A stretch of 64,000 nucleotides of DNA, from contig NZ_FOAP01000002.1 of assembly GCF_900109545.1 (NCBI RefSeq), positions 1 through 64,000 of the forward strand, read 5' to 3'. Below are positions 6,053 to 30,336 of the stretch, one piece after another. The notes beneath the pieces were generated by a model. That model saw nothing but the letters and a program-made list of their open reading frames with translations. It made no database searches and was not told the origin of the DNA. The stretch's first letter is position 1; each line of letters starts with the position of its first letter. The translations under genes were made by a program, and so were the position numbers. The stretch is from Stigmatella aurantiaca. GTDB lineage: Bacteria; Myxococcota; Myxococcia; Myxococcales; Myxococcaceae.

Positions 6053-6151
6053 CCAAATGCTACATGATGGCCATATGTCCTCTCGTGCCGCGCCCGCCGT
6101 GCCCGCTGAACCGTTGATGCCGCAGCCCTGGCCCCTCTGCTTCTGAGCGGT

Positions 6152-7765
6152 ATGGTGGGACGTTTCCGATGGCTCTGCGGGCTTCTTCTCCTGCTGCTGG
6201 CCAGCGTCGGCCTGGCGCAGGAGGCGGAGCAGCGCCGCGAACCCCTCGTCTTCAGCGGCAACGTCGTGTTGTCCGACGAGCTGTACCTCGCGATGCTCGA
6301 TCTGCCGTCGGACTTCAAGGTCAGCGCCGCCGAGGCGGGGCGGATCCGGGACCGGCTGCTCTCGTTCCTGCTGCAGGCGGGCTATGAGCTGGCACGGGTG
6401 GATGCGGTGGTGCAGGGCGAGCGCATCCTCGTGGACATCGATGAGGGGCAGGTCGAGAAGGTCATTCTTCGCGGCCAGGGCTCGCTGCGCACGGTGCAGT
6501 TGATCATCGGCCTGGGGCTTCCCAACAACGTCTTCAACCGTCCCTACCTCAAGCGTCAGTTCACCCAGCTGCGTGAGCGGAACGGGGTGGAGGTGGAGCG
6601 GTATGAGCTCGTCCGAAGGGACGATGTGTCCCACGTCGGGCCCCAGGTGAACACCCTCGAGCCCATTCCCCTCATCGACACCCGCAGCTGGTCGACGAAT
6701 CACCCCCTGCTTCCGCCGCGGGATGACTACCAGTTGCACATCCTCGTCCACCGCCGGGAGTGGGTGACGGGACTGGGCGTCATGGCGGGGCTCAACGGGG
6801 TAGACGGTCTGCTGCTGGGGCTCGAGTACAAGGGAGCGGATCTCCTGCTGAACACCGACCGGTGGCGCGCCTGGACGCAGCTCGGGGGGAAGATCCGTTC
6901 AGACGTGGTCGACATGCACGACTATCTGGCGCTCACCCGGGTCAGCACCGAGGTGCAGTGGCTCGCTCCGCGCCTGCACCTGGGCATCCGGCCCGCCCTG
7001 GCGCTGCGGGGGGAGCTCACGAGCCGCCAACGGCCCGATGTCGGCCTGGAGAGCTACTTCGCCACCCGGGCGCAGCTGGCGCTGGGGCTCCTCTACGATC
7101 GCATTCCCGGAATGCTCTTCGCGCTGGGGTTGGGGGCCGAGAAGCTCGATGTCTTCTCACTGCGCCGGGTGGAGGGAACGGGGGCTCGCGAGGGAATCGA
7201 GTCGAGTTCGACGTTCCAGCCCTACCTGGGGGGCACGGCGCAGATGATCTTCGATACCGATGAGATCCGCAGGGACCGCCGCCATGAGATCGCCATCCTG
7301 GGCCAGTACTCCCCGGACTCCACCGGGCGCAGCTACGGACAGCTGAGCTACCGCTACCAAAAGGTCTGCGAGATCGGCTGGCACGATGTGTGGGTCACCA
7401 GCAAGGGGGCCTATCTCTGGGGCAAGATGCCCTTCTCCGAGGAGCAGCCGGTGGGAGGGCCTCACGTCCGGGGCGTCTTCGACGACCGCTTCTTCACCCG
7501 CAGCGTTCTCAGCACGGGGTTGGAAGGGCGCTTCTCGCTCGTCCGGGATCTCTACAAGGTCGGTCTCTTCACCGATATGGCGCTGTTCGGCGAGCGGAAC
7601 CGCGCGGACGGGACGTCGAAGCCGCGGCTGGTGGGCGCCGTGGGCCCCAGCGTTCACCTGCTGCTCGCCGACACCTTCCAGTTCGATCTCTATTACAGCG
7701 TGGGGCTGGCCCGCGGTGGCGAGATCGAGAGCGGCTTCTCGGCCACCCTCAAGCAGGCCTTTTGA
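6152..7765 (+). CDS. POTRA/beta-barrel outer-membrane protein (BamA/TamA-like)
   Basis: A 537-residue exported protein. A signal peptide (cleavage near GLAQ, residue 23) is followed by one or two POTRA-like domains (about residues 30-170: FSGNVVLSDELYL, VEKVILRGQGSLRTVQLI, YLKRQFTQLRERNGV). A long beta-strand-rich region then ends in LKQAF; the terminal Phe is the BAM recognition signal. This is the Omp85 superfamily plan (BamA, TamA, ShlB). The barrel is too divergent to name the member. It is co-directional with the TonB receptor and lipoprotein but separated by a hairpin and about 220 bases. Its 3' end overlaps the convergent downstream gene by 17 bases. Confidence 0.7.
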   Translation: MVGRFRWLCGLLLLLLASVGLAQEAEQRREPLVFSGNVVLSDELYLAMLDLPSDFKVSAAEAGRIRDRLLSFLLQAGYELARVDAVVQGERILVDIDEGQVEKVILRGQGSLRTVQLIIGLGLPNNVFNRPYLKRQFTQLRERNGVEVERYELVRRDDVSHVGPQVNTLEPIPLIDTRSWSTNHPLLPPRDDYQLHILVHRREWVTGLGVMAGLNGVDGLLLGLEYKGADLLLNTDRWRAWTQLGGKIRSDVVDMHDYLALTRVSTEVQWLAPRLHLGIRPALALRGELTSRQRPDVGLESYFATRAQLALGLLYDRIPGMLFALGLGAEKLDVFSLRRVEGTGAREGIESSSTFQPYLGGTAQMIFDTDEIRRDRRHEIAILGQYSPDSTGRSYGQLSYRYQKVCEIGWHDVWVTSKGAYLWGKMPFSEEQPVGGPHVRGVFDDRFFTRSVLSTGLEGRFSLVRDLYKVGLFTDMALFGERNRADGTSKPRLVGAVGPSVHLLLADTFQFDLYYSVGLARGGEIESGFSATLKQAF

Positions 7766-22138: not shown

Positions 22139-23053
22139 GTGAAGCGCTACTTTGGTGTCATCGTCCTCTTCGTGGGTGTGCTGGTCGGCTCGGTGATGTT
22201 CTACCGGAAGCTGAGCGCCCAGACCCACGAGGCGCAGCGCGAGGCGGATCTGGCCCGCATCCAGAAGGAGTACCTGGAGCGCGTGGGCTGGATGCGCAAC
22301 AACCCCGACGACAAGGCCTACCGCGAGGAGGTGGCCCCGTTCTTCAAGACGTACTTCGAGCAGATCGACGCGCACCTGAACCGCTATGGAGGGAACAAGG
22401 AGTTCGACGCGTACCTCCAGGAAGTCGAGCGGCGGGCGGAGAGCGGCAAGGAGGACCGGGCGGACGACCGGAAGGCCTTCTACCAATACACGCGTAAGGT
22501 CTTCGACAGATTCCGGGGCGGGCGCTACCACCCGGAATGGACGGCCACGGACAAGGGGATGCGGCTGGATGTGGTGTCCTCGGACGTGGTGATGGTGCTG
22601 GGCAAGCCGCAGGTGCGGCTGCAGCTGGCGCTGTGGGGCGCGCAGCGCGAGATGAAGGAGGAGGGCAAGCTGAAGAAGATGATGACCAGCGCCGCCTTCG
22701 ACACCGCCTGGCGGCTCACCGATGCCAAGGGCAAGCTCGTGGGAGAGATGCGGGGCGCGGATCCATCGATGAAGATCGACTTCCCGGAGCGCTTCATCGC
22801 CGAGTTCCCGCCGCAGATGGTGCTGGGCCACTACGACATGGACCTGGTGCCCTCGGAGGTGGCGAAGATGGACATCACCTTCAAGGTGACCTCCCGCGCC
22901 TCCACGGGCGGCATCGCCTCGTCCACGTACACGTGGAAGCTGGATGTGCCCGGGGAGTGGCGGCTGGGCGCGGGCGAGAAGTGGGAAGGGGCCACGGAAG
23001 AGGAGCGCCCCGAGGAAGAGATCGACCCGGCCAAGGCGAGCGCCCAGGAGTAG
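22139..23053 (+). CDS. Membrane-anchored protein of unknown function
   Basis: A 304-residue protein not assigned to a family. A GTG start at 22139 follows AGGAGA and is directly followed by one hydrophobic helix (FGVIVLFVGVLVGSVMFY), then a charged helical stretch (about residues 30-130) and a beta-rich domain (about 150-280) likely in the periplasm. It ends in an acidic tail. The upstream open frame is rejected because it lacks a ribosome site and would bury the helix. The matrixin gene starts 54 bases downstream, so it may be the first gene of that cluster. Confidence 0.6.
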   Translation: MKRYFGVIVLFVGVLVGSVMFYRKLSAQTHEAQREADLARIQKEYLERVGWMRNNPDDKAYREEVAPFFKTYFEQIDAHLNRYGGNKEFDAYLQEVERRAESGKEDRADDRKAFYQYTRKVFDRFRGGRYHPEWTATDKGMRLDVVSSDVVMVLGKPQVRLQLALWGAQREMKEEGKLKKMMTSAAFDTAWRLTDAKGKLVGEMRGADPSMKIDFPERFIAEFPPQMVLGHYDMDLVPSEVAKMDITFKVTSRASTGGIASSTYTWKLDVPGEWRLGAGEKWEGATEEERPEEEIDPAKASAQE

Positions 23054-23107
23054 GCGCCGCTCACAAAGGGGGTGCCCAATTTCGGCGCTGCGCCGGTCTT
23101 GGAGGAA

Positions 23108-24487
23108 ATGACCCCCATTTCCTCTTTGAGACTGTCGTGGAGGCGCCTGTGGCTGGCGGCCTTCTTGCTGTTCACGCCCGCCGCCTGGGCCTCGACCCAG
23201 ATGGCACTGGATGTGCCCGCCCTGACGCAGGGGGCGGATTGGGTGGTCCAGGGCCGGGTGCTGCGCACCCAGCCCCACTGGATTCCCGGCACGGGGCGCC
23301 TCGTCACCACCGTCGAGGTGTCCGTGGGGGAGGTGCTGAAGGGCACCGTGACGCACCCCTCGGTCCAGGTGCTCTTGCCGGGCGGCACCCTGGGCGGCAT
23401 CCGCCAGCACGTCAGCGGCGCGCCCGCCTTTGCTCCCAGTGAGGAGGTGGTGGTCTTCCTGAAGCAGGGGAGCGAGGGCCCCCACCTGGTGGGGCTGTCC
23501 CAGGGCAGCTTCCGGGTGCTTCGCTCCGCCCCGGACGGCCATGTGAAGGCCACCTCGATGCTCGCGGCGGACTTGCAGTTGATCGATCCGCTGTCGCTCC
23601 AGCCCGTTTCCCCGGCGCCGAGGACGGTGGACCTCCAGACGCTTCGGAAGGAGGTGCTCGCGGTGGCGGCAGCGGAGGACTCCCCGGCCCTCCAGCCCTT
23701 TCAGTCCTCCCCCGGGGAAGATGGGCCGGTGCCTTTCGTTAGAACCCGTGTGCCCCAGGAGCCTGGGGCCGGGGAGGAGCACTGCTTGTGGTGGCCTGGG
23801 GGCAGCACGCTCACGTTTCATCAGCAGGTCTGCATGCCGGGGGAGCCGGACTGCGCGGCCCGCCAGGCGGCGGTGGCGCTGGCCCTGAAGCGCTGGGATG
23901 ACGCCCTCGTGGCGTGTGCGAGCCTCCGGCTGGCCGATGGACCCGCCACCTCCTCGCGGCAGGTGGGCTACAGCCCCGGGGGAACGAACGAGAACATCAT
24001 CGTCCTGCGGGACCGGACCTGCACGCAGCCGGAGGAGCCGGACTGCTGGGAGCACCACGCGGAGACCCTGGCGCTGACGACGGTTACCTTCCGGATGCCC
24101 AGTGGTGAAGTGCTCGACGCGGACATCGAACTCGCCCCCTGGGCCTTCGTGCCCAACAGCCCCCTGTCGCTCCAGGGGGTGGTGACGCACGAGCTGGGTC
24201 ACGCGCTGGGGTTGGACCACTCGCCCGATTCGCGCTCGACGATGTACGCCACGGTGACGCCCGGCGAGCCTCCCCGGCTCACCCTCGATGAGGGCTCTCA
24301 ACAGGCCCTGTGCACCATCTATCCCAGCGGTGCCCCGGCGGTGGACTGCGGCCAGCAAGTTCAGGAGCAGCCGTTGCGGCCTGGCGACTCGGGGTGCGGT
24401 GTGGCCACGGGCGGAGGAATGCCCGCCCTGGTGGCGGGAGGGGTCTTGCTGGCGCTGAGGCGCCGCCGGAGCCGGAGCACGCCATGA
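23108..24487 (+). CDS. Matrixin-family zinc metalloprotease with MYXO-CTERM tail
   Basis: A 459-residue secreted protease. A signal peptide (RRLWLAAFLLFTPAAWAS) precedes an N-terminal beta domain (about 30-200) and a metalloprotease domain with the zinc motif HELGHALGLDHS (HExxHxxGxxH) and a downstream Met (STMYATV) as in metzincins. The C-terminus has the MYXO-CTERM plan: a GCG motif, a hydrophobic helix (GMPALVAGGVLLALR) and an Arg cluster, a signal for surface sorting in myxobacteria. ATG 23108 follows GGAGG with short spacing; GTG 23072 is an alternative. The stop overlaps the next ATG (ATGA). Confidence 0.85.
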   Translation: MTPISSLRLSWRRLWLAAFLLFTPAAWASTQMALDVPALTQGADWVVQGRVLRTQPHWIPGTGRLVTTVEVSVGEVLKGTVTHPSVQVLLPGGTLGGIRQHVSGAPAFAPSEEVVVFLKQGSEGPHLVGLSQGSFRVLRSAPDGHVKATSMLAADLQLIDPLSLQPVSPAPRTVDLQTLRKEVLAVAAAEDSPALQPFQSSPGEDGPVPFVRTRVPQEPGAGEEHCLWWPGGSTLTFHQQVCMPGEPDCAARQAAVALALKRWDDALVACASLRLADGPATSSRQVGYSPGGTNENIIVLRDRTCTQPEEPDCWEHHAETLALTTVTFRMPSGEVLDADIELAPWAFVPNSPLSLQGVVTHELGHALGLDHSPDSRSTMYATVTPGEPPRLTLDEGSQQALCTIYPSGAPAVDCGQQVQEQPLRPGDSGCGVATGGGMPALVAGGVLLALRRRRSRSTP

Positions 24488-25182
24488 ACCTTCGGGGCAC
24501 ACGCGTGGGGTGGATGGCGCTGGGGTGGGGACTCCTGGCGCAGGGCACGGGGGGCTGTGGGGAGTACGGCCTGGCGGATGAGACGTACCGCGTCGATCCG
24601 GTGGCGGTCCTGGACGGACAACTGCGCGCCCCCCTGGAAGCGGGCCGGGGCCCCACGGCGATGGCCCTGGCGTGGGCCCCGGGGCTGTCTTCCCTGGAGG
24701 AACTCTCCGTGGCCTTGCTGGCCGGGAACAGCGCGTGTGGCCTGGAGCAGGGCGCCCTCCTGCAGCCGATGCCTCATGAGGAGCACTTCCCGGTGAACTT
24801 CGTGCTGCCCCTGTCCACGGTTCCGCCTCCGGCGGCCCAGCATGTGTTGGCGTCCCGGGGAGGACAGGGGCGTCTGGCCCTCGGGTGGGTCCTCTCCTTC
24901 CAGGATGCCAATCGCAACGGCCGCTTGGACTTGGCGCCGGAGGAAGGCCCGCCCGAGCGCGTGATGGCCACGTCCCTCGACTCGGGCATGGCCGTGCTCT
25001 TCGTGGATGGGGAGCTGCCGCGTGAGCGCGAGGGCATCTGGCGGCAGTGGCCCGGAAGGCTGCCGCTGGGGTTCAGCCTTCTGCAGGGAAGTGCCTCTCC
25101 CGAGGGGGGGGCCTCGCTCCGATCGCTCCCGGCGGACTCCACCTCCTTGACGCTGGAGGGCGCCCGGCGAGTGTGTCCGTGA
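24484..25182 (+). CDS. Putative lipoprotein of unknown function
   Basis: A 232-residue exported protein. The N-terminus has a short hydrophobic stretch ending in TGGC, an imperfect lipobox, so lipid attachment is likely but unproven. A segment reading FQDANRNGRLDLAPEEGP resembles a calcium-binding DxNxNGxxD loop. No family was recognised. The ATG overlaps the matrixin stop and the sigma-factor gene begins 9 bases after its stop, which places it firmly in the same operon. Confidence 0.65.
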   Translation: MNLRGTRVGWMALGWGLLAQGTGGCGEYGLADETYRVDPVAVLDGQLRAPLEAGRGPTAMALAWAPGLSSLEELSVALLAGNSACGLEQGALLQPMPHEEHFPVNFVLPLSTVPPPAAQHVLASRGGQGRLALGWVLSFQDANRNGRLDLAPEEGPPERVMATSLDSGMAVLFVDGELPREREGIWRQWPGRLPLGFSLLQGSASPEGGASLRSLPADSTSLTLEGARRVCP

Positions 25183-25191
25183 GCGAGCGCA

Positions 25192-25692
25192 ATGGACGCG
25201 TCGGCGATCGAGCAATGGTATGCGTTGTATGGGTATGCCGTGCATCGGCGGTGCGTCCGTTTGCTCCAGTCCGAGGCCGAGGCGGATGATGCCTTGCACG
25301 AGGTCTTCCTGCGCGCCTGGCGCTACGCGCACACCCTCCGGGACGGGCAGCCGCTGCCCTGGCTCTACCGCATCGCGGACCGGCATTGCATGGACCTGCT
25401 GAGCCGCCGGGCGCGGCATGTGTCCACGGAGGAGGGGAAGGTGCCCCATTCGGAGGAGGCCGTGGCCTCGGAGACGCCGGAGCAGATGTACCTCTTCGGC
25501 CAGGTGCTCGCGGCCTGCAAGGAGCGCGTGCGGGACACCGCCGTCCTCTACTACCTGGATGAGCTGACGCAGGAAGAGGTGGCCGAGCACCTGGGGTGCT
25601 CACGCAAGACGGTGAAGGAGCGGCTGGCCCAGTTCAAGGAGGTGGCCCTCCGGCTGCTATCAGGCGTGCGGCCCCAGCGAGGAACGGGATGA
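25192..25692 (+). CDS. ECF-type RNA polymerase sigma factor
   Basis: A 166-residue sigma-70-family factor. Region 2 (about residues 10-75) contains EAEADDALHEVFLRAWRYA and PWLYRIADRHCMDLLSR; region 4 (about 110-155) contains an HTH, LTQEEVAEHLGCSRKTVKERL. Regions 1 and 3 are absent, as in ECF factors. The stop overlaps the ATG of a zinc-finger membrane protein (ATGA), a standard sigma/anti-sigma pairing. Its target promoters are unknown but probably include this operon. Confidence 0.88.
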   Translation: MDASAIEQWYALYGYAVHRRCVRLLQSEAEADDALHEVFLRAWRYAHTLRDGQPLPWLYRIADRHCMDLLSRRARHVSTEEGKVPHSEEAVASETPEQMYLFGQVLAACKERVRDTAVLYYLDELTQEEVAEHLGCSRKTVKERLAQFKEVALRLLSGVRPQRGTG

Positions 25693-26486
25693 ACCGCTTC
25701 GATACCCTGCGTGCCTCCCGTGAGGCGGGCCACCCTCCGGGGCGGGTTCTCGATGAGCTGGCCTTCGCGCCCGGGGAAGCGATCCGGGCCTCCGAGCCTG
25801 CGCGCCACGTGAGCGCCTGTGCGGCCTGCCAGGCCCGGATCGCGGCCTTGCGAGAAGAACGTGCCCGTTTCCTACGGGCCCGTCCCGCGCGGGCTTTCGC
25901 TGCCCGGGTGCTGGAGCAGGCCGCACGTCCGTCCTGGTGGGAGCGCCCCAGGCTGTGGGCGTTGGCGATGGTGCCCGCGCTGGCGCTCGTTGCCCTGGCG
26001 CTTCAAGGCGCGCTTCCCGGGCCCGGTGCCTCCAGCGGGTCCGCGTCCATTCGATACAAGGGCGCGGCCCCGGTGCGCTGGGAGGTGCTCGTCAGCCGCG
26101 AGGGACAGCCTGCGGTGGCCTTCCCGGAGGGCATGCCCTTGCGTGAGGGAGACGTGTTGCGCTTCCGGGTGGTGCTGCCGGAGCGGGGCTACGTCTTCAT
26201 CGCCAACCTGGACGAGGCGGGGCAGTTCACCCGCTATTACCCCGCGGACAGCGCGCACGCGGTGGCCCTGGAGCCTGGCGAGCATGTTTTGCCGGGCAGT
26301 GTCGTCCTGGATGACGTGCAGGGCGAAGAGCGGGTGATGGTGTTTGTCAGCCCCACGCCGCTGGAGGCCCAGGAGGTCGAGGCCGCGGTGCGCCAGGCCT
26401 TCGAGCGGGCGGGGGGCTTGAGGTTCGAGGATCCCGGGCTGCCGGTTCCGTCGGCGTCGCATGTCCACGTCAAGGAGGCGCGATGA
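25689..26486 (+). CDS. Zinc-finger anti-sigma-like membrane protein with DUF4384
   Basis: A 265-residue single-pass membrane protein. The N-terminal cytoplasmic part has H40-x3-C44-x2-C47 (HVSACAAC), the zf-HC2 ligand spacing of ZAS anti-sigma factors. One helix follows (about residues 91-110, LWALAMVPALALVALALQ). The outer part (about 120-240) matches DUF4384, a beta domain often found with caspase-like proteins: LREGDVLRFRVVLPERGYVFIANLDEAGQFTRYYP. It is between the sigma and caspase genes with 4-base overlaps on both sides, so it probably restrains the sigma factor and senses something outside the membrane. Confidence 0.8.
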   Translation: MNRFDTLRASREAGHPPGRVLDELAFAPGEAIRASEPARHVSACAACQARIAALREERARFLRARPARAFAARVLEQAARPSWWERPRLWALAMVPALALVALALQGALPGPGASSGSASIRYKGAAPVRWEVLVSREGQPAVAFPEGMPLREGDVLRFRVVLPERGYVFIANLDEAGQFTRYYPADSAHAVALEPGEHVLPGSVVLDDVQGEERVMVFVSPTPLEAQEVEAAVRQAFERAGGLRFEDPGLPVPSASHVHVKEAR

Positions 26487-28060
26487 GGGGATGGGTGCTG
26501 GCGGTGTTGCTGTGCTCCGGAGCCTCCTCGGCCCAGGGCGAAGGGGCGCTGCGGGTGGCGGTGGTGGTGGGCAGCAACATCGGTCTGAAGGAAGAGGCGG
26601 CCCTCGACTACGCGGAGGCGGATGCCCGGCGCTTCCATGCGCTGATCCGGGAGGCGGGCCAGGTGGCCCCGGGCCATGCCTTCCTGGTGACGGAAGGGGG
26701 CGCGGAGGCGGTCCGGAGCGCGCTGTCCAGGGCCCAGCGGTTGCTGGCCCAGGCGCGTCTCCGGGGGAGCGGCACGTTGATCTTCTATGCGTCCGCCCAC
26801 GCGGATGAGGAGTCGCTGCACCTGGAGGGCACGAAGCTCCCCCTCGCGGAGCTGACCCAGGTGCTGGAGGACACACCGGCCACGTTGCGGGTGGCCCTCC
26901 TCGATGCGTGCCGGACGCCGGTGCGGACCCGTGCGAAGGGAGGCGTGCCTCGCGCCGTGGAGGTTCCCGTGCAGTTGGAGGTGCCCGCCCAGGTGGAGGG
27001 GATGGTGGTGCTCCGGTCGGCGGGGGAGGGGGAGCCCGCCCAGGAGTGGTCCGCCCTACGGGGCTCGCTCTTCACGCACCACCTGCTGGCGGCGTTGCGC
27101 GGACTGGCGGATGGGAACGGGGATGGGGCCGTCACGCTGGCGGAGCTCTACGCGTACACCTGGCGCCACACGCTGGCCAGCTCCACCCAGGGAGGGGCGG
27201 GGCTCCAGCACCCGAGCTTCGACATCCGCCTGAAGGGCTGGGGAGAGTGGGTGCTGGCGCGCCCGGCGCGGCTCGGGGCCCAGTTGGTGCTCGGGGAGGA
27301 CGTGGAGGGCAGCCTCTGGGTCACGGACCCGCAGAACGGGCTGGTGGCGGAGGTGCGCAAGTCCCGGGGCGAGGTCCTGCGGCTGGCGGTGCGGCCTGGA
27401 CGGTACCAGGTGGTTCGCCCCGAGGGCGCGTTCGCCGAGGCGGCCGAGGTGCTCCTGGGCTGGAACGCGGAGCGGGTTCTGACCCGGGCTGGCTTCCTGA
27501 GCGTGCCCCGGCAGCACGCCCGTCTCCGCGGGGGGGCGCCGCTGGTGCTGCGCCCGTGGGCCCTGAGCGCCGGGTATGCCCTGTCCTCGGGCTCGGTGCG
27601 GGGCCTGGGCCTGGAGCACTTCGCGGAAGTGGGGGTGCGGCGCCGGTGGTCACGGGCCCTGGTGGGAGCGCGGCTGGGCTTCACGCGCGCCCGGAGGGCG
27701 TGGGAAGACCTCCACCTGGTCCAGACCGGAGTGCAGGCCTCCCTGAGCGTGGGCTTCCCGTTTCCCCTGGGGCCCGTGGAGGTGACGGTGGGGGCAGAGG
27801 GCCGTGGGACGTGGGTGTCCCAGTCCTTCACACGGGTGGATGCGGAACAGGCCGGCCGGCTCTTCGGCATCGAGGAGCCCCGGCGCTGGGGGCTCATTCC
27901 GGGCGTGGGGCCGTTCGCGTCCGTGACGTACCCCTTGGCGGAGCCGCTGCTGGTGGGGGTGGAGGGCACCGTGGGCGTCATGCGGACGCCCCGGTACGAG
28001 GGCAGGGCGGAGCTGCTGCCTTCCGCCCAGTGGCGCATGGCGCTGCACTGGGCGCTTTGA
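26483..28060 (+). CDS. Caspase-family (peptidase C14) protein with C-terminal beta domain
   Basis: A 525-residue exported protein. A signal peptide (cleavage near SAQG) is followed by a caspase p20-like domain (residues 23-250): VAVVVGSNIG, the catalytic His106 in YASAHADE and Cys143 in LLDACRTP, both at expected positions. The residues around His differ from the usual SGHG. The rest (about 260-525) is beta-rich, with alternating aromatic/Gly strands such as LSAGYALSSGSV and VEVTVGAEGRGTWVSQSF, suggesting an outer-membrane barrel or large beta sheet. Last gene of the sigma operon (ATGA overlap). Substrate unknown; activity is inferred from the intact dyad. Confidence 0.82.
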   Translation: MRGWVLAVLLCSGASSAQGEGALRVAVVVGSNIGLKEEAALDYAEADARRFHALIREAGQVAPGHAFLVTEGGAEAVRSALSRAQRLLAQARLRGSGTLIFYASAHADEESLHLEGTKLPLAELTQVLEDTPATLRVALLDACRTPVRTRAKGGVPRAVEVPVQLEVPAQVEGMVVLRSAGEGEPAQEWSALRGSLFTHHLLAALRGLADGNGDGAVTLAELYAYTWRHTLASSTQGGAGLQHPSFDIRLKGWGEWVLARPARLGAQLVLGEDVEGSLWVTDPQNGLVAEVRKSRGEVLRLAVRPGRYQVVRPEGAFAEAAEVLLGWNAERVLTRAGFLSVPRQHARLRGGAPLVLRPWALSAGYALSSGSVRGLGLEHFAEVGVRRRWSRALVGARLGFTRARRAWEDLHLVQTGVQASLSVGFPFPLGPVEVTVGAEGRGTWVSQSFTRVDAEQAGRLFGIEEPRRWGLIPGVGPFASVTYPLAEPLLVGVEGTVGVMRTPRYEGRAELLPSAQWRMALHWAL

Positions 28061-28110: not shown

Positions 28111-30294
28111 TCAATCCACGACGGTGAAGTGAGACACCAGCCGGTAGGCACTGAGGGTCCCGCTGTCGTCCAGCAGGTAGAGGCCGAGCCGCGCGTCCAC
28201 CTGGAGCGCGACGAGTCCGGCCCCCGCGCGCACCTGGCCCAGCACCTGGCCTCCCTTGGGGTCCACGGCGCGCACCTGATCGCCGGCCAGGAGGGTGACG
28301 CCGCGCGAGGTCCGGGCGGGCAGGGCGGCGGGGAGGGCCTCTCCCACGGCGCCCACGCGCCAGCTCAGCTCGCCGGAGGTCTCCACCCGGGCCGCCGCGC
28401 CGCTGGCGGAGGTGACCAGCACCGCGCCCGGCAGCGCGGCCAGTGCATAGGGGCCCGTGCCCAGGTGCAGCGCGCGCTCCCACAGGAGCTTCCCCTTCGC
28501 GTCCAGGCAGAGCAGCATGCCCTCGCGGTCCCGCTCTCCGGCGACGTACAGGCGCGTGCGTGAAGTCAGCGGGGCCGAGGGCATGGCCAGGTGGAACTCA
28601 CGCGTCCACGCCACGTCTCCGGAGTGTGCATCCGCCATCAACAGCGCGTGGTGCGAGCCCCGCCCCAGCAGCGCCACGAAGTGCTTGCCCCAGGGCACCG
28701 GCGTGCCGTGGAAGGGCTGCGGCGCCCGCATCCGGTAGCGCACCTGCCCGTCCGTGATGTCCAGCCCGTACAGGTAGCCCGAGTCCGTGGCCAGCATGGC
28801 CCGGTGGCCCTGCATCGCCAGCCAGCTGCGCTGGGTGCGCGGCGGTGCCAGGCGCCAGATTTCCCGGCCGGTCACCTCCGCGTAGGCGAGCACCGTCCGG
28901 TCCTCCGCCAGGGTGATGAGCAGTCCGTCCTGGCGCACCAGTTGCGGCCCCAGCGTCAGCCCGTCGTGGTCGTGCAGCCACCGGGCGCTGGGGCCCGAGC
29001 CCATGAAGCCGAGGACGCGGTCCAGGTCCGCCGTCACCACGTGGCCTTCCGCCGTCGCCGCCACGCCATGGCTCGACGCCCGCCGCCACAGGATCTCCCC
29101 ATCCTTGCGGGACACGGCGCAGGCCATCTCCCGCGAGCAGAACACCGCCTCCTGGCGCCCCAGGTGGAGCTGGCCGAACTCCGCGCCCGTCAGCCCCTTC
29201 TGCGACCAGCGCTTCTCGAAGCGCAACCGGCGCAGGCGCCCGGGTACCGGCAGGGGCTTGCCCGTGCCCGCCGCACGCCCCCGTCCCCGGGCCTGGGCCT
29301 CGCCTTCGGAAGGGGGAACGGCCTCGCGCAGGTGCGACAGCCCCTCCCGGCACCGGTCCGTCAGCTCCACCAGATAGGGGTTCGAAACCTGGGTGCGCTC
29401 ACGCTCCGAGAGGGCCAGCGCCAGCGACTGCCCCAGGTGGAACATCGCCGCCACCAGCGCCTCGCCCTTCACCTCGAAGGCGGCGCCCGCGCCCAGCTTT
29501 CCCCGCCCCGCGGCCAGCTCCAGGGAGAGCCCCGGCTTCACCCCGGCCAGCTCCAGGGAGAAGCGGGGCTCGCCGAGCTCCACCGCCCGGGCCAGCTCCA
29601 CCGCCTGCCGGGACAGCTCCAACGCGGTGAGGAAAGGAGGGCCCGGAGCCCGCCACGCCGTGGGCTGGCCCGGCAGGGAGAGCCAGACCTCGCCCGCGCA
29701 CAGCAGGCTTCCCAGGGCCGCGCCCGGGTCCTTTCCCCGGGACCGCAGCAGGTCCGTGGCGTCTTTCAGCTCGAAGCCGAAGCCGGGCGTCTCCGGGGGC
29801 TCCACCCGGCGGACGAAGGGCTCGGGGCGGGGCGCTTTCTGCACCACCCCCGGGCCGCTGAGCTGGCGCAGGGCCTCCTTCAACTCCCGGGCCGGGGGGG
29901 TGGAGAGCGTGCCGGGGGCCACCCGGGTGAGGTCCGCCAGGAAGCCCCGGCCGCACTCCCGCGCCGCCTCGGCCAGATCCTCCAGGTCCACCCGCACGGG
30001 CGGCCGCAGCAGCCGCGCCGGGCGCCCCAGGCTCGCCACGGACAGGGCCACCTCGGTCCCGGTGCGCCGCATCACCAGCTCCAGCCCGGCCTCCACCAGG
30101 GATACCTGGACCAGCCCCTCTTTTCCGGAGTGCAAAGCCGCCGCCGCGCGCGTCAGGGCGGACACCACTTCCACGAGCGGTTCTTCCACCGCCCCAGAAA
30201 GAAGGTTGACGCCATCCAATTCCAAGGCGATGGAATCCAACGGCGGAGCCGAGGGTTCGCGCTTCCAGCGCTGTCCAAGACGAAAGCGGGTCAT
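28111..30294 (-). CDS. PQQ-like beta-propeller protein
   Basis: A 727-residue protein. The C-terminal half (about residues 370-727) is a chain of PQQ/BamB-like blades: SRKDGEILWRR, EVTGREIWRLAPP, LDITDGQVRYRMR, AHSGDVAWTREF, LDAKGKLLWERAL, VETSGELSWRVG. The first ~350 residues are helical/beta and unassigned. No signal peptide is visible with the ATG at 30294, so it looks cytoplasmic, unusual for this blade type. GAAGGGA precedes the start. It is divergent from the HARE-HTH gene and convergent with the caspase gene (50-base gap). Confidence 0.75.
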   Translation of the reverse strand: MTRFRLGQRWKREPSAPPLDSIALELDGVNLLSGAVEEPLVEVVSALTRAAAALHSGKEGLVQVSLVEAGLELVMRRTGTEVALSVASLGRPARLLRPPVRVDLEDLAEAARECGRGFLADLTRVAPGTLSTPPARELKEALRQLSGPGVVQKAPRPEPFVRRVEPPETPGFGFELKDATDLLRSRGKDPGAALGSLLCAGEVWLSLPGQPTAWRAPGPPFLTALELSRQAVELARAVELGEPRFSLELAGVKPGLSLELAAGRGKLGAGAAFEVKGEALVAAMFHLGQSLALALSERERTQVSNPYLVELTDRCREGLSHLREAVPPSEGEAQARGRGRAAGTGKPLPVPGRLRRLRFEKRWSQKGLTGAEFGQLHLGRQEAVFCSREMACAVSRKDGEILWRRASSHGVAATAEGHVVTADLDRVLGFMGSGPSARWLHDHDGLTLGPQLVRQDGLLITLAEDRTVLAYAEVTGREIWRLAPPRTQRSWLAMQGHRAMLATDSGYLYGLDITDGQVRYRMRAPQPFHGTPVPWGKHFVALLGRGSHHALLMADAHSGDVAWTREFHLAMPSAPLTSRTRLYVAGERDREGMLLCLDAKGKLLWERALHLGTGPYALAALPGAVLVTSASGAAARVETSGELSWRVGAVGEALPAALPARTSRGVTLLAGDQVRAVDPKGGQVLGQVRAGAGLVALQVDARLGLYLLDDSGTLSAYRLVSHFTVVD

Positions 30295-30306
30295 CCGTTC
30301 CCTTCG

Positions 30307-30336
30307 TTGACAAGCCAGAATACAGGTGGCTAGCAT
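30307..30336 (+). promoter_or_regulatory. Consensus sigma-70 promoter of the HARE-HTH gene
   Basis: TTGACA (30307-30312), 18-base spacer, TAGCAT (30331-30336). The start point would be near 30343, giving a leader of about 50 bases with GGGGA before the ATG at 30395. The -35 box is a perfect match to the housekeeping consensus. Confidence 0.7.

Follow-up and report, generated by a model that had tools for sequence, protein, structure and literature searches.

A caspase homologue as proposed site-1 protease of an ECF σ factor pathway in Stigmatella aurantiaca

What could an exported caspase homologue be doing next to an extracytoplasmic function (ECF) σ factor and a membrane anti-σ factor? The question is raised by a five-gene cassette of Stigmatella aurantiaca (Myxococcaceae; genome of 9.37 Mb), located in the first 64,000 nucleotides of contig NZ_FOAP01000002.1 (hereafter the window, 64 kb) and encoding, in this order, a matrixin metalloprotease, a lipoprotein, the σ factor, an anti-σ factor with a periplasmic DUF4384 domain and the caspase (Table 1). 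The original prediction had read these genes as one signalling unit in which two proteases outside the membrane, the matrixin and the caspase, could cut the anti-σ factor or each other. Taken as a whole, this interpretation is partly supported: the reading as one signalling unit agrees with the evidence, the gene order is conserved as a set and the caspase stands as the likely cutter, while a cutting role for the matrixin, which is confined to a sub-lineage, is improbable. From conservation and structural models, we consider it probable that the caspase cuts the anti-σ factor after K124 as a site-1 protease and processes itself after K152, thus freeing the σ factor.

The σ/anti-σ/caspase core

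The σ factor (166 residues) is a group 4 member of the σ70 family, with regions 2 and 4 and without region 3 (sigma70-ECF E 3.7e-20; Sigma70_r2 E 5.9e-12; Sigma70_r4 E 2e-7; TIGR02937 72.2 bits, cut-off 42.9). Its partner has an N-terminal domain related to known anti-σ factors, which would place it among the class I membrane anti-σ factors, the family profile matching RslA (3hug, E 1.6e-4), ChrR (2q1z), DdvA (8rlz) and RsiW. The window protein alone gives no zf-HC2 Pfam match, although the HxxxCxxC motif is present, and this zinc motif is retained in only about half of the family, as judged from 73 σ/anti-σ/caspase triples from several phyla, the set to which all counts out of 73 refer. In the AlphaFold2 model (mean predicted local distance difference test, pLDDT, 84.9) a helix at residues 89-108 is followed by a disordered stretch (112-123) and an Ig-like fold from residue 130, for which a PDB search returned no clear single relative beyond the Ig-like sandwich.

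The caspase matches Peptidase_C14 (E 3.2e-6) and is modelled with confidence (pLDDT 87.3; predicted template modelling score 0.83), its sole internal disordered stretch (pLDDT <50) being residues 147-166. The protease domain has the caspase-haemoglobinase fold, aligning with the metacaspase AtMC4 (6w8r) with a VIA-align Z of 22.0 and a root-mean-square deviation of 2.7 over 203 aligned positions, and its Foldseek matches include MALT1, legumain and metacaspase 9; caspases and MALT1 are likewise matched at a Z of about 22. The C-terminal part is predicted to fold into eight long strands that match the barrels of OmpA, OmpX and Ail, and an aromatic C-terminal end pattern, typical of outer-membrane proteins, occurs in many relatives. 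Pfam and profile matches thus agree with the families originally assigned to the matrixin, the σ factor, the DUF4384 protein and the caspase, and both the outer DUF4384 domain of the anti-σ factor and the export of the caspase are supported.

The dyad His106/Cys143, originally described as intact, is present and invariant among the relatives (73/73), as are D47 and D141. In the alignment, these two acids fall on the NDA and D-x-C positions of metacaspases, described in TbMCA2 as the S1 residues Asp95/Asp211 (PMC4357240), an equation made by motif, TbMCA2 itself being outside the alignment. The enzyme combines a His/Cys dyad with an acidic S1 pocket. Metacaspases cleave behind Lys or Arg and, animal caspases apart, the C14 enzymes that have been characterised favour a basic P1 residue (PMC5756287). 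Degenerate dyads are common among prokaryotic caspase homologues at large (16%; PMC5756287); since here neither the dyad nor either S1 acid varies, catalysis appears to be under selection.

The core of σ factor, anti-σ factor and caspase reaches well beyond the window, to at least five bacterial phyla. With only the caspase profile as query, 80 loci were kept out of a search of 84,980 species genomes. They belong to Myxococcota, Fibrobacterota, Gemmatimonadota, Latescibacterota and Goldiibacteriota, and in 72 of them a σ factor and a DUF4384-type anti-σ factor lie directly upstream on the same strand; three of the eight others are truncated at contig ends. Because the query profile was itself built from σ/anti-σ/caspase loci, this linkage describes the clade of the window caspase and not bacterial caspases generally. 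An anti-σ-first sample of 40 loci gave a σ factor in 40/40 and a caspase in 39/40. In the window genome, all clear caspase homologues adjoin a σ factor and an anti-σ factor; no relatives of the caspase were found in viral contigs. Some loci depart from the core: L122, L148 and L150 encode a caspase and a lipoprotein without adjacent σ and anti-σ factors, their linker still reading R-V-K-G, and L196:4411-5181 is a σ/anti-σ pair with an intact K-G stalk, the caspase being absent from the 10 kb fetched.

A Lys-Gly dipeptide in both partners

The anti-σ factor and the caspase have a Lys-Gly dipeptide in common. In the anti-σ factor, K124 (K in 72/73, R in one) and G125 (G in 72/73, S in one) are the two lowest-entropy columns of a protein that is otherwise poorly conserved across the triples. 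In the caspase, K152 (K in 72/73, R in one) and G153 (73/73) stand nine residues after the catalytic Cys, a position that we take to be the p20/p10 linker of caspases and metacaspases. Both sites fall within low-confidence stretches of otherwise confident models, and are predicted to be disordered. In 16 lineages whose caspases are less than 50% identical, 15 have K-G and one has R-G at both sites, and Arg occupies P3 in 10/16 anti-σ factors and 13/16 caspases, so that both resemble R-x-K↓G (arrow, proposed cut). Among the 40 anti-σ-first loci, the dipeptide after the membrane helix is K-G in 38 and R-G in two; as a control, K-G is found in none of nine other zinc-finger proteins of the same genome that bear a transmembrane helix, at the equivalent position. 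One of these nine itself adjoins a divergently oriented caspase.

The two sites may also vary together. A divergent subfamily (L168-type) has R-G in both partners and its relatives L265-L268 have K-G in both; across hand-picked clusters the P1 covariation (K/K versus R/R) gives a Fisher p of 0.015, which is only suggestive, the Arg/Arg members looking largely like one clade.

In the pathway that we infer, comprising a signal, cleavage, a site-2 step, σ release and an output, the cytoplasmic domain of the anti-σ factor would keep the ECF σ factor at the inner membrane. The caspase would be exported; in the window subtype its barrel probably anchors it in the outer membrane, and the protease domain would face the periplasm. 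Once a signal arrives, the caspase would mature by a cut after K152 and would cut the anti-σ factor after K124, within the flexible stalk that links the membrane helix to DUF4384, removing the periplasmic domain (site 1). An RseP-type protease, for which candidates are encoded in the genome, would make the intramembrane site-2 cut and release the σ factor, which would transcribe its own operon, yielding self-amplification together with more lipoprotein and, in the window lineage, a probably surface-anchored matrixin. Cleavage is favoured because a stalk predicted to be flexible and unfolded would hardly need an invariant dipeptide for its structure, and because this dipeptide echoes the site at which the protease encoded next to it presumably processes itself. 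With somewhat more caution, we extend the proposal and think it rather likely that, in several phyla, caspase homologues serve ECF pathways as dedicated site-1 proteases; the site they recognise would resemble R-x-K↓G, the anti-σ site then imitating the caspase's own processing site.

Several observations weigh against this proposal. The barrel topology is a prediction, caspases of other lineages have different C-terminal parts, and model confidence at K124 of the anti-σ factor is low to intermediate. The P1 residues of anti-σ factor and caspase do not always agree within a locus (R/K in L093, K/R in L121, K/R in L270), the L170-type caspase linker reads K-S while its anti-σ factor still has K-G, and the L169 anti-σ factor has R-A. 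Moreover, the orphan anti-σ factor of L196 keeps its K-G, in a genome with other caspases, and K-G is also found in three caspases without an adjacent σ factor, which fits self-processing and is not specific to anti-σ factors. The dipeptide could be a docking or folding motif instead of a cleavage site. As a separate observation, in L275-L304 caspases adjoining K-G anti-σ factors have Thr/Ser-Cys-His-Ser-Gly, with K-S in place of K-G after the catalytic Cys.

Docking forms the core of the first alternative, in which the K-G stalk is a docking site or pseudo-substrate, the anti-σ factor restraining the caspase or the caspase shielding the stalk, and another protease, for instance a serine protease of the DegS/Prc type, makes the site-1 cut. 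Conservation of a short motif would be expected equally from binding, retention of K-G by the orphan L196 fits, and the known site-1 proteases of regulated intramembrane proteolysis (DegS/DegP, SipS/SipT and Prc) are all serine proteases (PMC7593790). We nevertheless regard it as unlikely: the invariance of the dyad and of both S1 acids indicates that catalysis is under selection, the anti-σ motif resembles the caspase linker down to the P3 Arg, and the exchanges of K for R agree with a basic P1 specificity.

Even less credence is given to a second alternative, in which the σ and anti-σ factors only control expression of the caspase and its true substrates lie elsewhere, in cell death, lysis or the processing of secreted proteins. 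It would fit genes that are transcribed as one unit behind a conserved promoter-like block, and it is in line with the programmed cell death in which caspase homologues are commonly discussed; passages of a 2012 study interpret metacaspase operons of M. xanthus in this way (PMC3501461). It leaves unexplained, however, both the conserved periplasmic DUF4384 domain and an invariant K-G that imitates the caspase linker in an otherwise divergent anti-σ factor. The last alternative, that the anti-σ factor is cut by the matrixin, either on its own or jointly with the caspase, or that the matrixin activates the caspase, is very improbable, for although the matrixin belongs to the operon, is exported, has an intact zinc site and directly follows the promoter-like block, nearly all other σ/anti-σ/caspase loci lack a matrixin match, its nearest kin in other places are encoded by two genes of their own and its MYXO-CTERM-like tail suggests the cell surface.

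The window cassette and its accessory genes

Coordinates and spacings bear out the five consecutive open reading frames first described: 4-base overlaps join matrixin to lipoprotein, σ to anti-σ factor and anti-σ factor to caspase, and 9 bases separate lipoprotein from σ factor. The conserved co-occurrence that had been proposed as a check was found: six further genomes of the Myxococcaceae (L067-L072), from three genera, carry the complete order, at ~52-98% identity and far beyond chance. One is of the same genus (~88-97% identical to the window cassette), three belong to the Archangium group, among them Archangium lansinium, and two to the Myxococcus/Pyxidicoccus group, among them Pyxidicoccus caerfyrddinensis. 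Two genomes of the same genus, L238 and L239, lack the cassette, and in both the flanking genes (22139-23053 and 28111-30336 in the window) lie ~46 bp apart, which argues that the cassette was gained or lost as a block. A decayed remnant, with pieces of matrixin, σ factor and caspase joined through internal deletions, is seen in an Archangium-group genome (L073:11079-12448).

Table 1. Features of the cassette in window coordinates
Feature	Position	Strand	Evidence
Promoter-like block directly upstream of matrixin; -35-like GGTGCCcaATTT, -10-like CGGTC	23071..23098	+	
Exported matrixin metalloprotease, HELGHALGLDH, MYXO-CTERM-like C-terminal tail	23108..24487	+	Peptidase_M10 E 1.5e-9
Lipoprotein, lipobox-like Cys25, DxNxNGxLD-like (calcium-loop-like) motif	24484..25182	+	
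ECF σ factor, regions 2 and 4	25192..25692	+	Family searches
Membrane anti-σ factor: cytoplasmic HxxxCxxC domain, one transmembrane helix, periplasmic Ig-like DUF4384 domain	25689..26486	+	
Zinc motif H40-x3-C44-x2-C47 of anti-σ factor	25806..25829	+	Sequence
Predicted transmembrane helix of anti-σ factor, residues 89-108	25953..26012	+	AlphaFold2 model
K124-G125 of anti-σ factor, proposed cut at site 1, in the stalk outside the membrane (predicted to be disordered)	26058..26063	+	Conservation
DUF4384 domain of anti-σ factor, residues 151-224	26139..26360	+	Family match E 1.7e-7
Exported caspase homologue (C14) with predicted C-terminal 8-stranded outer-membrane barrel	26483..28060	+	Family search, AlphaFold2, Foldseek
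Catalytic His106 of caspase	26798..26800	+	Invariant 73/73
Catalytic Cys143 of caspase	26909..26911	+	Invariant 73/73
K152-G153 of caspase, predicted disordered loop after Cys143, proposed self-processing site	26936..26941	+	Conservation
Predicted eight-stranded outer-membrane barrel, caspase residues 359-524	27557..28054	+	AlphaFold2, Foldseek

The restriction of the matrixin to a sub-lineage, set against a core conserved across phyla, is what makes the caspase the likelier cutter, and the matrixin is best described as a lineage-specific accessory. Its N- and C-terminal halves match two adjacent genes (G000:C10:157276-158744), a split pair found across the family, so that it probably arose as a fusion of genes that are separate elsewhere. 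It is related to the MXAN_2677/MXAN_2678 metalloprotease family NF041905, scoring 176.4 bits, below the curated cut-off of 250, and its C-terminal tail is rich in Cys, hydrophobic residues and Arg, like MYXO-CTERM. Its start may be TTG 23126 instead of ATG 23108, the TTG aligning with starts in other genera. The lipoprotein has no Pfam family match; the lipobox Cys and the DxNxNGxLD-like motif are invariant among its homologues, which are the second frequent partner at other loci, mostly downstream of the caspase. In L088, a gene for a CotH-like lipoprotein (6139-7446; judged by eye) stands upstream of lipoprotein, σ factor, anti-σ factor and caspase, in the place of the window matrixin.

The promoter-like block is conserved ahead of the matrixin in 7/7 orthologous cassettes. 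Without mismatch it occurs once in the genome, at the operon itself, which is therefore the only supported target of the σ factor; matches with one mismatch are no more frequent than in a reversed control, and a wider regulon is not claimed from them. A looser cross-phylum pattern is found in 30/110 sequences (shuffled mean 7.9, maximum 14); the sequences being related and the pattern lineage-specific, this enrichment is taken as supporting evidence only.

Comparison with known systems

For caspase homologues of prokaryotes few natural substrates are known, and in 2017 MaOC1 was still the sole orthocaspase to have been characterised biochemically (PMC5756287). A conserved partner in the operon, with a bond that is predicted to be cut, makes the question testable. 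If the proposal is true, regulated intramembrane proteolysis would gain a cysteine protease acting at site 1, a caspase would be placed in the bacterial envelope, and caspase-family proteases would have a non-death role in multicellular, predatory bacteria. This would amount to a large signalling family with a caspase-type protease as transcription switch and not as killer, tethered in some lineages to the outer membrane.

Searches confined to an open-access library yielded nothing on the anti-σ factor, on DUF4384 or on a caspase acting as site-1 protease. The genomic association itself is known: passages of Asplund-Samuelsson 2012 (PMC3501461) report σ70/metacaspase operons in Myxococcus xanthus, Anaeromyxobacter, Haliangium, Sorangium, Ralstonia and Fibrobacter, the same link between metacaspase and σ factor as in the window. 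Compared with these passages, the window adds the anti-σ factor, DUF4384, the shared K/R-G, the barrel, the lipoprotein and matrixin, and the proposed mechanism, of which the mechanism, the shared site and the anti-σ factor seem not to have been described before. Like the metacaspases and orthocaspases (MEROPS C14B; AtMC4, TbMCA2, MaOC1), the window caspase has the fold, the His/Cys dyad, the acidic S1 pocket and, in the linker that follows the catalytic Cys, a basic residue; unlike them, it is exported, carries a predicted outer-membrane barrel and has fixed σ and anti-σ partners. ECF54 likewise places an ECF σ factor near a caspase-fold protein, having CHAT/protease neighbours, but it is described without an anti-σ factor and proteolysis is proposed on the σ factor itself (PMC8999054).

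Another close parallel is the RseA/RpoE-DegS-RseP pathway, which likewise has an ECF σ factor and a single-pass anti-σ factor with a periplasmic domain, and a site-1 cut followed by a site-2 cut, as proposed here. DegS-type enzymes are serine proteases with a PDZ domain, whereas the proposed site-1 protease of the window is a C14 cysteine protease of clan CD, encoded in the same operon and with a predicted basic P1. For proteolysis of an anti-σ factor by a caspase-fold enzyme there is a precedent in the type III-E Craspase (Csx29-Csx30-CASP-σ), where Csx29 cuts the anti-σ factor Csx30 (PMC10028731), freeing an ECF σ factor as we propose here. None of the five cassette genes matches the Cas7-11, Csx29 CHAT or Csx30 families. 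Craspase is cytoplasmic, RNA-activated and built on a CHAT-type protease and an unrelated anti-σ factor, whereas the window system has no CRISPR component, and is exported and linked to the membrane.

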